Shown here: positions 8,548 to 41,544 of the stretch, piece after piece
Layout of the letters: each line of letters opens with the position of its first letter
Position numbering within the stretch: position 1 is the first letter of the stretch
Position numbers and translations under genes: made by a program
DNA from: Candidatus Ornithomonoglobus intestinigallinarum
GTDB taxonomy: Bacteria; Bacillota; Clostridia; UBA1381
Length of the DNA stretch: 46,551 bases
Direction of reading: 5' to 3'
Assembly: GCA_018715365.1 (NCBI GenBank)
Contig: DVLU01000064.1
Location: 1 to 46,551, forward strand
Notes under the pieces: model-generated
The model's database searches: none
What the model was told of the DNA's origin: nothing
The model's input: the letters and a program-made list of their open reading frames with translations, nothing else

Positions 8548-9573
8548 TCAGCTTTCGATAACCTCAAGGTAATCGGGGTATTCTCTCTCTTCTTCGGACG
8601 TATATTGAAGCAAAACATCGCCGTCGTTATCCTCCAGCTCGTCAAAGCCCATGATTTTATACGTTATATACATTATCCTGTTTCTGTCGGTTGTTCTGAA
8701 CTCGGCAAAAAGCGGCTTGTTCAATTTTTTTGCAAGCTTCGCAAGATAGATAAGTATTGCCGAGCCGACGCCGCGCGACATTACGCGGCAGCTCATAAGC
8801 AGCAGCTTGATCCTTAGCGCGTCCGTGTTTTCAACAAGTATAAGGCCTATCTTGCCGTAATCACCGTATTTATCGGTAAGCTGCGCAATTCTGAAAATAT
8901 GCTTATCCGACGTTAAAAAGCCCTCAAGCTCCTCATACGAATACGTGTAGCCCGTGGAATTAAGCTGATGCGTTCTCACCGTCAGCTCATACGCTCTCCG
9001 GAGGTCGTGCTCCGTTACGGGCGAAATTGTCAGCCTCATGTTAAGGCGCTTTAAAAATTCGGTGTTATCCCCGGAAAACTCCTGCTCATCGCGCTTTCTT
9101 TTGCTGTCCGCAATATACATCATACGGCGGTTTACCGTATCCTCCGTTATAAACCGCGGTATCATGCAGTCCATATCGGGTATTTTATCAATATCCGCCG
9201 CATCTATCGTTAAGATGTTTTCGTTTGCCGAAAGCACCTCCTCGCGCTCAAACGGCGAATCGTCAACAAACGCAAACGAGTCAAGACCGAGATTCAATTC
9301 CTCCGATATTTTTTTAACGCCCTCGCTTTTCGGATTCCAGTTTATCTGCGGATAGAGGAAATAATCGGCAATGCCCATTTCCTCAAGCTTTTTGTAAGCG
9401 TCATCAAAATTGTTTTTGCTTGCGACCGACATTAAAATCCCGCGCTTATCGAGCGTTTTAAAAATGTCTTTTATGTTGTCCCTTAACTTTACGTCATCGC
9501 CCTCCGACAGCACACCGCTCCAAAGCGTATTGTCAAGATCCCAAACGACGCATTTTATTTTTTTCCGTTCCAT
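8548..9573 (-). CDS. FkbH-type HAD-IIIC enzyme with GNAT-like C-terminus
   Basis: The N-terminal HAD-IIIC domain shows motif I DLDNT (Asp12, Asp14), motif II ASKNN near 51, a motif III Lys at 82 in NWNPKSEG and motif IV FVDDSPFERE (Asp104, Asp105). The C-terminal half, from about 170, resembles an acetyltransferase fold. In characterised polyketide pathways FkbH-family enzymes take 1,3-bisphosphoglycerate, dephosphorylate it and load a glyceryl unit onto an ACP. Here it sits 15 bp downstream of an ACP gene and in the same unit as an MBOAT and an SGNH protein. Loading that ACP with a glycerate-derived acyl group is therefore the natural inference. At 341 residues it has the core FkbH length and lacks the extra N-terminal domain of larger homologues. 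Confidence 0.88.
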   Translation of the reverse strand: MERKKIKCVVWDLDNTLWSGVLSEGDDVKLRDNIKDIFKTLDKRGILMSVASKNNFDDAYKKLEEMGIADYFLYPQINWNPKSEGVKKISEELNLGLDSFAFVDDSPFEREEVLSANENILTIDAADIDKIPDMDCMIPRFITEDTVNRRMMYIADSKRKRDEQEFSGDNTEFLKRLNMRLTISPVTEHDLRRAYELTVRTHQLNSTGYTYSYEELEGFLTSDKHIFRIAQLTDKYGDYGKIGLILVENTDALRIKLLLMSCRVMSRGVGSAILIYLAKLAKKLNKPLFAEFRTTDRNRIMYITYKIMGFDELEDNDGDVLLQYTSEEEREYPDYLEVIES

Positions 9574-9588
9574 TTTGTCACCGCCGTT

Positions 9589-9816
9589 TTACAGATATTT
9601 TTCAACAACCTCTGCCATCGAATTTACAGTTTTAAAGTTTTTCTCCGTTATATCCTTGTTTTTTATTTTTATTTTAAACTCCTTTTCGAGAAACATAACA
9701 ATTTCAAGCGCAAACAGTGAATTAACGTATCCGCCCTTAAAAAGGTCGGTGTCGCAGTCTATGCCCGTTATGTTTTTTTCGCCGAAAAATTTCAATATTC
9801 TTTCCTGTGTGGTCAT
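9589..9816 (-). CDS. Acyl carrier protein
   Basis: Discrete 75-residue carrier protein. The predicted phosphopantetheine attachment site is Ser33 in GGYVNSLFALE. The usual DSL triplet is NSL here, so the Asp before the modified Ser is replaced by Asn. The four-helix ACP pattern is otherwise visible. ATG 9816 has a textbook AAGGAGG upstream. The gene lies immediately before the FkbH gene and after the MBOAT and SGNH/CE4 genes, so it probably shuttles a short acyl unit to surface glycan modification rather than serving fatty acid synthesis. DltC-like carriers have the same size and neighbourhood. Confidence 0.85.
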   Translation of the reverse strand: MTTQERILKFFGEKNITGIDCDTDLFKGGYVNSLFALEIVMFLEKEFKIKIKNKDITEKNFKTVNSMAEVVEKYL

Positions 9817-9896
9817 GATTATTTTCCTCCTTAAAATTTATGCTTTTATATAATGCCTAATGCCGCGATTTACGGGCGGCAATTCGATTGCGTACG

Positions 9897-10049
9897 GGCG
9901 GCGATTGCCTGTTCCGCGAAATGTTCGCCGCAGCAAGCGAAACGCATACCGTCTTCGTGAACGCCGTAAAAAATTATTGCTTGTGTCGGTGCGCGTGGTA
10001 TGCGTAAGCGCGGCGAGGCGATTTTTGAGCGGAACAGGCAATCGCCGCC
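9897..10049. repeat. MITE/REPIN-like inverted-repeat element, copy 1
   Basis: A 153-bp element bounded by perfect 21-bp inverted arms (9897-9917 and 10029-10049, with core GATTGCCTGTTCCGC). A second internal inverted pair, ACGCATACC and GGTATGCGT, gives an almost continuous long hairpin. A related copy lies at 41400-41544 with the same internal blocks (GCGAAATGTTCGCCGC and GGCGATTTTTGAGCGGAAC). It has no coding capacity of its own. The element fills most of the 277-bp gap between the SGNH/CE4 gene and the ACP gene and could affect transcript processing within this unit. Confidence 0.8.
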
Positions 10050-10093
10050 TTTCCTTAAACTTTCGATAGCCTTTGCCCAAAAAGCAAATAATA

Positions 10094-11926
10094 TTATCGT
10101 ATCAATTCCAAAAGCTTTTCGCCCGTAATATTCGGATACATCCCTATCCTTTTAAGCCCGCGCAGGCTCTGCGGCAGACCGCGGGCAACATCGTTTACGC
10201 CCTCCTCCGTTGTGACCGTCACGTCAAATCCGGCTTCGCGCGCGCAGACGTCTGTAAGAACCGAATGTATCCCCTTCGGGAACGAAAGCGCAAAAACATC
10301 GTTTCCGACGGCGCTTTCAATATCGCTCCTCGATTTTTCAAGGTCCGCTTTGAAAATTTCCGCAAACTCCGCGTCGCTCTCGCCGTCAAGCTTTGACGCG
10401 CCGTCGCGGTATTCCGCGTCAAGACCTTCAACGCGGTGCATATCAAACGTGTGGCTTTGAATATCCACATACCCGCTGTCATACATTTCCTTTGCCTGCG
10501 CCCAATCAAAATGCGGGCGTATCGCAGCTCCCGTATCCTTGTACGTTTCCGCGCCCGACGTAACGCCGACCGCAAACACCGTCGCTTTAAAGCCGTACTT
10601 CCGCAATATCGGATAGGCGTATTCGTAATTTGAAAGATAGCCGTCGTCAAACGTTATAACAACGCACCTTTCCGGCAGCGCGCCCGTGCCGTTTACGTAT
10701 TCCTCAAGCTCCGCAAACGATACGCTTTCATAGCCGGCGTTTCTGAGCGCCGCAAGCTGCTCCTCAAAAAGTTCGGGCGTTATTACCATGCCGTTGTCCG
10801 GCTCCTCATCGCCTATATCATGATACATAAGCACCGGGATTTTTTTGGAATACGTATTTACGTCTGCCCGTTCCGACGGACGCGCAAAAACTGTTTTTGC
10901 GTATTCATACGCGTTATCCTTTGTTGTGCTGTGCCCGAACCCGTCGGGTATATAAACGCCCGTATCGCCGTATATCCACGCAAGCGCCATATCGCCGACG
11001 CTGTTTCTGAAGTGCGCGTCATCGTAAAAATACCGCGCGTCCATGCTGACCGGCGAATAACCCGTAAAATCATAAATATCCGTCACCTCGGCAAGCTTCT
11101 GCCAATAGGTGCACAAATCATTGTAGTCGTAGTCCTCGATTTCCGTATCGTAAAGCGGCGACGCGATAAGCTTAAAGTCTATGCCCCTGCTTTCGCAAAG
11201 CTCCTTCACGGCACGGACCGATTCGACAGCCTTATCTATCGCTTCGCCCCTTCTGCCGTCCTCGCGGTAGAGATAAAACTCCGGATTGTTTTCGAAAAAC
11301 TCAGCCTCACCCGTTATGCTTTCGGCGTCGCGCACTGTTTTGTTGTACACTCCTGTTTCGGGGATAAACACATCGTCCGCCGTCGGCAGATAGTCACGCT
11401 CAAAATACGCTTCCAGCTTATCGAGCGAATACTGCGGGTTTAAAAACGCGTATTTCAAATAAAACAGCAGCTCGCTTTCGCCCTCGACCTTTGCATGAAG
11501 ATTGCCCTTTGTGTCATCGTCCTCATAGTCGTAGCTGTACATTTCCTCAATGCCGATATTTAAAATTATGTTTTTTACTTCATAATTGTTTATAACATAT
11601 TCTGCCGTTTTCTGCGCGTCATACATATCGCCGCCGTACATTATCATGTTGTAGAAACGCGCGCCCGTGTATTCGTTCAGCTTTTCAACGGAATACGAGC
11701 TTGTTTTTGAGCTGCCTATTATATATGAATCGTATTCTCCGTGATGCTCGTCGAGATACGCGATTTTTGCGATACGCGGGTTCTGCGTCATATCGTAGGC
11801 ATACCAGTCAAAAATTTTGTCGCCGAACACGCCGAACGGGTCAACGGCAACGTTAAAGCCCGCAAGCAGCGCCGCGGAAACGGCCGCCGAAGCGGCAAAT
11901 ATCAAAATATATTTTTTTAAATTCAA
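10094..11926 (-). CDS. SGNH-hydrolase-like (DltD/AlgX-like) protein fused to CE4 polysaccharide deacetylase
   Basis: A 610-residue protein with an N-terminal membrane anchor or uncleaved signal (about 5-27). The first half is an SGNH-like domain: the candidate nucleophile is Ser72 in YIIGSSKTSSY, and the Asp-His pair is in YDDAHF (Asp302/303, His305). From about 363 a CE4 (NodB) domain follows: IPVLMYHDI, FDDGY (Asp427, Asp428) and metal ligands His492 and His497 in QSHTFDMH. CE4 enzymes remove N- or O-acetyl groups from polysaccharides. SGNH domains next to MBOATs, as in DltD, AlgX and AlgJ, hand acyl groups to glycans. Predicted location is extracellular, membrane-tethered. It lies 26 bp downstream of the MBOAT gene. 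Confidence 0.85.
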   Translation of the reverse strand: MNLKKYILIFAASAAVSAALLAGFNVAVDPFGVFGDKIFDWYAYDMTQNPRIAKIAYLDEHHGEYDSYIIGSSKTSSYSVEKLNEYTGARFYNMIMYGGDMYDAQKTAEYVINNYEVKNIILNIGIEEMYSYDYEDDDTKGNLHAKVEGESELLFYLKYAFLNPQYSLDKLEAYFERDYLPTADDVFIPETGVYNKTVRDAESITGEAEFFENNPEFYLYREDGRRGEAIDKAVESVRAVKELCESRGIDFKLIASPLYDTEIEDYDYNDLCTYWQKLAEVTDIYDFTGYSPVSMDARYFYDDAHFRNSVGDMALAWIYGDTGVYIPDGFGHSTTKDNAYEYAKTVFARPSERADVNTYSKKIPVLMYHDIGDEEPDNGMVITPELFEEQLAALRNAGYESVSFAELEEYVNGTGALPERCVVITFDDGYLSNYEYAYPILRKYGFKATVFAVGVTSGAETYKDTGAAIRPHFDWAQAKEMYDSGYVDIQSHTFDMHRVEGLDAEYRDGASKLDGESDAEFAEIFKADLEKSRSDIESAVGNDVFALSFPKGIHSVLTDVCAREAGFDVTVTTEEGVNDVARGLPQSLRGLKRIGMYPNITGEKLLELIR

Positions 11927-11952
11927 TGCCTGTTTCCTCCGTTTCGCCGCGC

Positions 11953-13359
11953 CTAAAACTGAAAGTACAAAAAGCCCGATACCGTGCCCATGCAGAACAG
12001 CGACAGCGCCATAAGCGCGCCCGCGTATACGGCATATCTCGGCTTCGGCTCAAAGTTCTCTGCCAGCTCGCCCGTATTTTTGAAGCCGAAAATTATAACG
12101 GCACTTATTATAAGCAGCGCGATTATGCCTTTGTTTTCGGCAAAATACGCCGTCCACTGCGTGCAGAGCTCCTGCCACGGCACCGGCGTGAACATTGTTT
12201 GATAAACGCTTATCGCCTGCGTTGTTGTGTACGAATCAAACAGCACCCTCACAAGCACCGAGAAAAAGAACGTCAGCGCCCATGCGATCGGGAACGGCAG
12301 CCTTTTGCGGTAGAGCGTCATCATGTTTGCTGCGCACACAAAAATACCGTTCGCAATTCCCCAGAATATAAAATGCCAGCCTGCGCCGTGCCATATGCCA
12401 GACGCAACAAACGTAACAAGCGTTGCAAAAATAAGCTTTATTTTGCCGTTTCCGAAACGGAATATGCGTTTAAAAACGTTATCCTCAAGAAACCTTGATA
12501 TTGTTATGTTCCATCTGCGCCAAAAATCGGCAAAATTCCGCGCCTTATACGGCGAATTGAAGTTCTGCGGCAGCTCTATATTGAAAAACCGCGACAATCC
12601 GAGCGCCATGTCTATATAGCCCGAAAAGTCAAAGTAATACGCAAACGTGTAGGCTATAACAGCGCTCCACGAATTGAACAGCCCCTCTCCCGTTCCGTCG
12701 TAAAACGCCTGCGCATGCGCTATAAGCGGATCTGCCATAACGGCCTTTTTGAAGCAGCCTACCGCAAAAAGCAAAATGCCGAGCATGACGTTTTTTGAAT
12801 TAAAGGCGATAAGCCTTTTGCCCTTAAGCTGCGGCAAAAATTCATCGTGCGACACAACCGGCCCCACAACGAGCTTCGGAAAAAACGTAACGAATACCAT
12901 GTAATCGAGAAACGAGCATTTTTCCGCATCGCCAGAATAGCTGTCCGTAAGGTACGATATGAGCTGGAACGTATAAAACGAGATTCCGAGCGGCAGTATT
13001 ATATCGAGCATCGGGACGCTTGTCCCGAGCACGGCGTTTACGTTTTCGAAAAAGAAGTTTCTGTATTTAAAATAAAACAGAAGCCCCAGGTTTACCGTAA
13101 GCCCGAGAGCCATTGCCGCAGCTCTCAGCGGCTTTTTTGTTCCTTCCTTCTGCAGCGCACGGCTTATTCCGAAATTAAACAGCGCCGTGAACACGAGTAT
13201 CGGCAGACATTCTATACTGCCGAAGCCGTAGAAAAACAGCGACGACGCGGCAAGCCATGTTTTCACAAGATATGTCCTTTTGGTGAGCCTCAGCAGATAA
13301 TATCCCAGAAGGACTGCCGGAAAGAACAGGAACACGAATTTATACGATGAAAATATCAT
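11953..13359 (-). CDS. MBOAT family membrane O-acyltransferase (DltB/AlgI-like)
   Basis: Multi-pass membrane protein of 468 residues that passes an activated acyl group across the membrane to an extracellular acceptor. Family landmarks are LGISFYTFQ near 124, FFPKLVVGP, YYFDFSGYIDMALG, FADFWRRWNITISRFLEDN and the putative catalytic His324 in GIWHGAGWHF. An open frame extends upstream to 13698, but that part is AT-rich leader sequence containing the promoter. The start at ATG 13359 follows GGGAAG and lies just downstream of the promoter at 13400-13428. It is the first gene of a unit with SGNH/CE4, ACP and FkbH genes, so the likely donor is that ACP. Confidence 0.92.
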   Translation of the reverse strand: MIFSSYKFVFLFFPAVLLGYYLLRLTKRTYLVKTWLAASSLFFYGFGSIECLPILVFTALFNFGISRALQKEGTKKPLRAAAMALGLTVNLGLLFYFKYRNFFFENVNAVLGTSVPMLDIILPLGISFYTFQLISYLTDSYSGDAEKCSFLDYMVFVTFFPKLVVGPVVSHDEFLPQLKGKRLIAFNSKNVMLGILLFAVGCFKKAVMADPLIAHAQAFYDGTGEGLFNSWSAVIAYTFAYYFDFSGYIDMALGLSRFFNIELPQNFNSPYKARNFADFWRRWNITISRFLEDNVFKRIFRFGNGKIKLIFATLVTFVASGIWHGAGWHFIFWGIANGIFVCAANMMTLYRKRLPFPIAWALTFFFSVLVRVLFDSYTTTQAISVYQTMFTPVPWQELCTQWTAYFAENKGIIALLIISAVIIFGFKNTGELAENFEPKPRYAVYAGALMALSLFCMGTVSGFLYFQF

Positions 13360-41303: not shown

Positions 41304-41399
41304 GGGTTTTTGCAAAATATTTTTATTTTTTATTTGACAAAATTACAGAAATTTAAGTTTTATTTTTGTATACTTTGACGGCGCTTTTTTTGCACAGCG

Positions 41400-41544
41400 G
41401 CTGTTGTCTGTTACGCGAAATGTTCGCCGCGGCAAACGAAACGCATGCCGTCTTCGTGAATACGATAAAGACTTACCGCCCGGCTTGGGACGCGTGGTAT
41501 GCGTGAGCGCGGCAAGGCGATTTTTGAGCGGAACAGATAACAGC
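41400..41544. repeat. MITE/REPIN-like inverted-repeat element, copy 2
   Basis: Arms GCTGTTGTCTGTTACGC (41400-41416) and GCGGAACAGATAACAGC (41528-41544) pair with two mismatches. The interior shares GCGAAATGTTCGCCGC and GGCGATTTTTGAGCGGAAC with the copy at 9897-10049. It sits between the activase gene's 3' end and the S10 promoter. Confidence 0.8.

Follow-up and report, generated by a model that had tools for sequence, protein, structure and literature searches.

The 46,551-nt stretch analysed here (the window) comes from contig DVLU01000064.1 of the Candidatus Ornithomonoglobus intestinigallinarum assembly GCA_018715365.1, a 2.3-Mb draft in 104 contigs that is 85% complete. Its positions 8548-13359 hold a unit of four genes that run head to tail on the minus strand and encode, in order, a membrane O-acyltransferase of the MBOAT family, a protein in which an SGNH domain is fused to a CE4 N-deacetylase domain, an acyl carrier protein (ACP) and an FkbH protein (Table 1). 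The genes are separated by gaps of 26 bp (MBOAT to fusion), 277 bp (fusion to ACP) and 15 bp (ACP to FkbH), and a promoter-like site precedes the start codon of the MBOAT gene by about 40 bp. Here we examine this unit as a probable acyl-transfer system of the cell envelope.

Table 1. Features of the four-gene unit and its surroundings, in window coordinates
Feature	Position	Strand	Description
Sigma-70-type promoter	13428-13400	-	TTGACA-17-TAGAAT, TG before the -10 element; 11/12 consensus matches; assigned by consensus match alone
MBOAT membrane O-acyltransferase	13359-11953	-	468 aa; catalytic-type His324; PF03062, E 7.5e-30
C-terminal acyl-shuttle motif of the MBOAT	11973-11956	-	FLYFQF (Tyr465); fits FXYXXF of DltX and PatA (PMC12148441)
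SGNH-CE4 fusion gene	11926-10094	-	610 aa; one N-terminal membrane helix (residues 3-28)
SGNH domain	11800-10901	-	residues ~43-342; predicted Ser73, Asp302, His305; fold from AlphaFold model
CE4 N-deacetylase domain	10858-10097	-	residues ~357-610; Asp427-Asp428, His492, His497; PF01522, E 3e-21
Interspersed palindromic repeat	9897-10049	+	between the SGNH-CE4 and ACP genes; accounts for sequence in the 277-bp gap
Acyl carrier protein	9816-9589	-	75 aa; phosphopantetheine site Ser33 in VNSLFA; PF00550
FkbH glyceryl-ACP synthase-like protein	9573-8548	-	341 aa; HAD domain and GNAT-fold domain; TIGR01686
Codon of Cys262 in FkbH	8790-8788	-	in SCRVMSRG; sole cysteine invariant across the FkbH proteins aligned

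The best matches of the MBOAT among structures in the Protein Data Bank are those of DltB, and it scores 132.5 bits on the DltB equivalog model TIGR04091, below the cut-off of 375. Both His324 and Tyr465 are invariant in 30 of 30 aligned units, the latter within a motif that reads FLYF[QN]F throughout, and two hydrophobic segments (residues 411-429 and 443-461) precede this motif. In DltX and PatA, the tyrosine of FXYXXF ferries the acyl group from the MBOAT to the SGNH protein; in MBOAT-SGNH systems other than Dlt, which have no carrier protein and use acetyl-CoA as the donor, the motif sits on two extra C-terminal membrane helices (PMC12148441). With its conserved histidine and C-terminal FXYXXF, the protein encoded here has the features of the membrane component of an MBOAT-SGNH acyltransferase.

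The adjoining gene supplies a candidate SGNH partner. No Pfam model matched the N-terminal half of the fusion protein, which we assign to SGNH because of its predicted fold and its invariant G-x-S and D-x-x-H motifs. An AlphaFold model built from 35 relatives had a mean pLDDT of 92; with this model, Foldseek retrieved DltD for the N-terminal half (E 1e-4) and PplD, PgaB and IcaB for the C-terminal half. In VIA-align comparisons of the predicted model, residues 47-321 aligned with GDSL/thioesterase I enzymes at a Z score of about 12, about 237 residues aligned with DltD at Z 10-11, and residues 356-610 aligned with PplD, PgaB and IcaB at Z 28-30. Across 30 aligned units, the predicted catalytic residues Ser73 (in G-x-S), Asp302 and His305 (in D-x-x-H) are invariant in the SGNH half, as are Asp427, Asp428, His492 and His497 in the CE4 half, whose His-x4-His spacing (the metal site) is shared with PgaB and BpsB in alignments. 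The fusion protein pairs a predicted DltD-like, extracytoplasmic SGNH domain, bearing a predicted Ser-Asp-His set, with a CE4 fold that has the Asp-Asp and His-x4-His sites of PgaB/IcaB-type deacetylases. Helix 3-28 of the model looks like a membrane anchor. The presence of CE4 suggests an N-acetylated hexosamine as the acceptor or as a residue next to it.

The last two genes encode the putative donor side. The FkbH protein scores 256 bits on TIGR01686 (cut-off 147) and the ACP barely exceeds its cut-off on PF00550; the two are neighbours in complete units, as in the window. Within the HAD nucleophile motif DxDxT of FkbH, D12, D14 and T16 are invariant; C262, outside this motif, is invariant too. 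The predicted structure places a HAD domain ahead of a GNAT-like one, and fold searches with it return HAD phosphatases and GNATs. Cys262 sits where a strand ends beside an RGVG turn, which we take to be the place at which the pantetheine portion of coenzyme A (CoA) is bound in GNAT proteins. The host genome encodes one FkbH above the cut-off, three MBOATs and a phosphopantetheinyl transferase. Tmn16, a characterised FkbH homologue, uses D-1,3-bisphosphoglycerate in vitro as the source of the glyceryl group that it places on discrete ACPs (PMC3625739).

Several results support the four genes being inherited as one unit. First, when an MBOAT alignment was scanned against about 85,000 genomes, 80 loci were kept, and 43 of their MBOATs, at 46% identity or more, all came from draft genomes of Clostridia from gut, rumen and other sources. 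In 39 of these 43 loci the MBOAT, SGNH, CE4, ACP and FkbH occur in the same order and on the same strand; this count includes L065, in which a contig end truncates FkbH. Of the four incomplete loci, L061, L075 and L094 run off their contigs and L089 is interrupted; L058-L060 belong to the same genomes as G050, G045 and G049. Second, at the other 37 loci, whose MBOATs show about 40% identity at most, neither an ACP nor an FkbH gene lies within 8 kb (less where the contig ends). Third, pairwise distances are correlated among the four proteins (r 0.78-0.90), with 0 of 999 permutations as high. Because order and strand recur in 39 loci, the four-gene arrangement is not due to chance.

A preliminary description of this locus, made without database searches, had placed the four genes on one strand behind one consensus promoter, with SGNH fused to CE4. 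Profile searches and the 11/12 promoter match, which falls just upstream of the gene interval, bear out the first point; PF01522 for CE4, and the predicted fold and invariant residues for SGNH, bear out the second. The conserved neighbourhood in relatives on which that description had staked its interpretation was likewise found.

This pattern of inheritance bears on whether the unit is simply a second Pat- or Oat-like acetylation system that adjoins an ACP-FkbH pair by accident, with acetyl-CoA as the true donor. The fused shuttle motif on the MBOAT is indeed the layout of acetyl-CoA-using systems (PMC12148441), and two further MBOATs of the host carry the same kind of motif and each adjoin a possible SGNH partner; neither ACP nor FkbH was detected beside them. 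However, all complete members of this MBOAT clade come with an ACP and an FkbH and those outside it have neither, and the distances of both proteins covary with those of the MBOAT, so that we regard an accidental pairing as highly improbable. The conserved ACP and FkbH instead suggest, at the level of sequence, a carrier-bound donor rather than an acyl-CoA.

The identity of the carried group is addressed by comparison with polyketide cassettes. The FkbH of the unit is 49-55% identical, end to end, to six FkbHs of hydroxymalonyl-type cassettes from plasmid records (Streptomyces, Alkalihalophilus and cyanobacteria), and more loosely related to a seventh (37-39%). In five of the six annotated plasmid loci, genes for a 3-hydroxyacyl-CoA dehydrogenase, an ACP, an acyl-CoA dehydrogenase and FkbH stand together beside polyketide synthase (PKS), nonribosomal peptide synthetase (NRPS) or related biosynthesis genes; in the sixth, L056, the 3-hydroxyacyl-CoA dehydrogenase gene is further away. 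This cassette arrangement is one in which glyceryl-ACP undergoes further oxidation (PMC7489565). The unit ACP is 39-40% identical to the ACPs of two cassettes (L051 and L053) and 28-32% identical to those of three others, with a VNSLFA-like site in common. Genes for the two dehydrogenases are absent from the operon in the window and are not among the conserved neighbours of the units; because the operon lacks them, the group would stay glyceryl. The proposal in the preliminary description that a glyceryl or related C3 group is moved is strengthened, because FkbH and ACP match the FkbH-ACP pairs of the cassettes and the hydroxymalonyl-forming dehydrogenases are missing from the unit.

Position by position, 32 unit FkbHs were compared with 13 cassette FkbHs, leaving out L056, the looser relative at 37%. 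In each group, the same 80 or so positions reach a conservation of 90% or more, and the sole fixed difference is F227 in the units versus Leu in the cassettes. In the FkbH tree the cassette proteins form one clade (support 100/99) with the unit proteins outside it; a topology that makes the unit FkbHs a single clade is not rejected (p-AU 0.50). The separate clade and F227 would both fit a relay that is real but carries something other than plain glyceryl, whether 3-phosphoglyceryl, another C3 acid such as lactyl, or a group that arises when an enzyme from another locus modifies glyceryl-ACP ahead of transfer. We consider such a change of cargo unlikely: it has to be set against a single fixed difference among the roughly 80 conserved positions, a HAD nucleophile region and Cys262 in common, and an operon in which no further enzyme is conserved. 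We also considered whether ASKN in place of CSKN in the unit FkbH marks a lost catalytic cysteine and rejected this, as most cassette FkbHs are alike in this respect and the sole invariant cysteine is Cys262.

Where the acyl group is delivered is suggested by the genes next to the unit. In 15 of the 43 units, but in none of the 37 outgroup loci, the operon adjoins genes on the same strand for a fusion of a family 2 glycosyltransferase with GtrA (GT2-GtrA) and for a protein of about 620 aa with 9-11 hydrophobic segments. A membrane glycosyltransferase of the GT-A fold, a GtrA flippase and a GT-C transferase are parts of systems that decorate teichoic acids or wall polysaccharides outside the membrane (PMC8035078). 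The ~620-aa protein had no Pfam match, and from its position and hydrophobicity we infer that it is the GT-C transferase. Together these neighbours support the view that some members act on an extracellular glycan.

They also argue against the unit making a secreted small molecule, in which case a lipid or metabolite, not a polymer, would be the substrate of the MBOAT and SGNH proteins. That idea draws on the nearest FkbH relatives outside the unit, which lie in PKS/NRPS clusters, and on suomilide synthesis, in which an MBOAT has been deduced to acylate a glycosylated peptide (PMC10143770). Beyond the glycosylation genes beside 15 units, however, it faces the lack of any PKS/NRPS or dehydrogenase gene among the genes that are conserved or annotated around the units, and the presence of SGNH and CE4, extracellular domain types known for acting on glycans. 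We judge a small-molecule product to be distinctly improbable.

Computation establishes the gene set, its order and conservation, the domain identities, the invariant predicted catalytic residues and the co-inheritance of the four genes; the chemistry and the acceptor we infer. Our favoured interpretation, to which we give a probability of about 0.7, is that the operon encodes a transmembrane acyl relay that places a glycerate-derived (glyceryl) ester on a cell-envelope glycan. As expected for its subfamily, FkbH would accept the acyl group of 1,3-bisphosphoglycerate, its HAD domain stripping the 3-phosphate, and its GNAT-fold domain would then hand glyceryl, probably via Cys262, to the phosphopantetheine arm of the ACP. 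Going by motif and homology, the MBOAT would collect glyceryl from the ACP at the cytoplasmic side and pass it to Tyr465 in its extracellular FLYFQF tail. From the tail the group would move to Ser73 of the membrane-anchored SGNH domain and on to a sugar hydroxyl as an ester, and the fused CE4 domain would de-N-acetylate a hexosamine in the acylated polymer or in one next to it. On balance we also favour describing the whole as a polymer glyceroylation pathway, in which 1,3-bisphosphoglycerate is diverted onto a carrier without ATP-dependent adenylation and exported as a glyceryl ester to a surface glycan that the same protein de-N-acetylates.

Several points weigh against this relay. The FkbHs of units and cassettes belong to different lineages, which leaves room for a change of substrate, and members of the FkbH family can in principle load other phosphorylated acids. 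The MBOAT could take acyl-CoA as well. The SGNH assignment in the fusion and the GNAT assignment in FkbH come from predicted structures, and every sampled member of the unit is from a draft metagenome genome. Finally, a PgaC/IcaA synthase exceeded the cut-off in 0 of 16 unit-bearing genomes, which are incomplete drafts; on the same result we rejected poly-N-acetylglucosamine (PNAG) as the acceptor, a candidate prompted by the PgaB-like CE4 domain.

The proposed relay resembles the Dlt pathway in its carrier-bound acyl donor, its MBOAT and its SGNH protein, whose fold is closest to DltD among the acyltransferases found. It differs in having FkbH in the operon, a shuttle motif fused to the MBOAT instead of a separate DltX, and an SGNH domain fused to CE4. 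The best match to the DltA model TIGR01734 in the host genome, an assembly 85% complete, reaches 69 bits against a cut-off of 560, and the unit ACP falls short of both DltC models (PRK05087, 27.6 bits against 68; TIGR01688, 19.9 against 52). No DltA, DltB or DltC model reached its cut-off, and the operon showed no DltX-like gene: the unit would function in a Dlt-like manner but is not a member of that system. The preliminary description had called it Dlt-like with FkbH in place of DltA. Simple replacement of DltA within a dlt operon does not describe the unit, because its MBOAT is far below the DltB cut-off and bears its own shuttle tyrosine, as in PatA-type systems. The interpretation offered there is, overall, supported.

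PatA-PatB and AlgI with AlgJ/AlgX likewise combine an MBOAT ending in FXYXXF with an extracytoplasmic SGNH partner; as described, they are carrier-less and use acetyl-CoA (PMC12148441), whereas the unit has an ACP and a loading enzyme. With the FkbH-ACP pairs of methoxymalonyl- and hydroxymalonyl-ACP cassettes and of tetronate clusters (OzmB, Tmn16), the unit shares the FkbH subfamily, the invariant cysteine and HAD residues, the VNSLFA-like ACP site and the closeness of the two genes; in place of 3-hydroxyacyl-CoA and acyl-CoA dehydrogenases and PKS/NRPS genes, its partners are envelope acyltransferase genes. PgaB and IcaB, which act on PNAG, and PplD, which acts on streptococcal wall polysaccharide, resemble it in CE4 fold (Z 28-30) and in the Asp-Asp and HxxxxH sites, but the unit's CE4 is fused to SGNH, and a canonical PgaC/IcaA was not found in the 16 unit-bearing genomes. 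Native gellan, which carries L-glycerate esters according to a reference listed in PMC4432689, offers a glycerate ester on a bacterial exopolysaccharide; by contrast, FkbH chemistry starting from D-1,3-bisphosphoglycerate is expected to yield D-glycerate. No enzyme for the gellan ester is described in the literature searched.

The unit would be a new combination of a Dlt-type carrier, a PatA-type fused shuttle and a polyketide-type loading enzyme. The open-access literature searched contained no relevant precedent for FkbH with MBOAT/DltB or a polysaccharide, which is weak evidence, as subscription journals lie mostly outside it; neither the four-family combination nor the SGNH-CE4 fusion within it was found there, in keeping with the earlier statement that no characterised system is known to have this exact set. 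To our knowledge, MBOAT-SGNH acylation of the envelope draws on two donors, an acyl-CoA (PatA) or an amino acid loaded on a carrier by an ATP-using ligase (Dlt), and FkbH enzymes are so far known from polyketide and peptide antibiotics. The unit suggests a third route, in which a glycolytic acyl phosphate is loaded by an FkbH enzyme. It joins carrier and fused shuttle as an intermediate design would, with O-acylation and N-deacetylation fused in one extracellular protein. If true, the relay would tie the glycolytic state of gut Clostridia directly to their surface chemistry; it predicts base-labile glycerate esters as a chemical mark on gut bacterial surfaces and, if confirmed, would be chemistry new for envelope polymers.

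Several further features of the locus and its relatives were recorded. The palindromic repeat between the fusion and ACP genes has 33-nt inverted arms and resembles a miniature inverted-repeat transposable element. The draft genome contains about 29 copies of it, which are 76-87% identical, with a second copy in the window at 41397-41536. The corresponding gap measures only 18-27 bp in the near relatives L058 and L059, and the repeat is an insertion with no functional part in the operon. FkbH is followed after 24 bp, in the same orientation, by a gene for a beta-galactosidase of glycoside hydrolase family 2 (8523-5596, minus strand), so the operon transcript may extend beyond the four genes. 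The beta-galactosidase gene also occurs in the near relative L058/L023; L060/L022 has a glycoside hydrolase family 20 gene there, and L059/L025 has neither. The other two host MBOATs (L030:210-2722 and L031:7148-9743) both end in FLYFRF and are each followed by a gene for a protein of about 370-390 aa, a candidate SGNH partner; with no ACP or FkbH detected beside them, these pairs are candidates for ordinary O-acetylation systems. In the interrupted locus L089 (8001-17504), about 7 kb separate the MBOAT and SGNH genes.

A search of viral contigs for FkbH found nothing. Among 391 sampled genomes of the class, FkbHs of the unit's type stand in one of three settings: the unit itself, PKS/NRPS cassettes that include the dehydrogenases, and a more distant third context; two lie at contig edges. 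The third context, seen in three families of Clostridia, is a row of genes for a ~395-aa protein, a GNAT-like protein, FkbH and an ACP (L171:6736-10677, L172:6584-9538 and L173:1178-4101). A two-domain FkbH relative of about 610 aa in sister genera lies near an MBOAT gene at L026, a link that we judged to be chance, as at four other loci (L027:7772-9595, L028:6771-8597, L029:9653-11467 and L033:7797-9731) this relative is conserved beside apparent purine biosynthesis genes, with no ACP or MBOAT seen. In three related genomes a gene for a CotH kinase family protein follows the unit (L073:12546-14195, L076 and L102).

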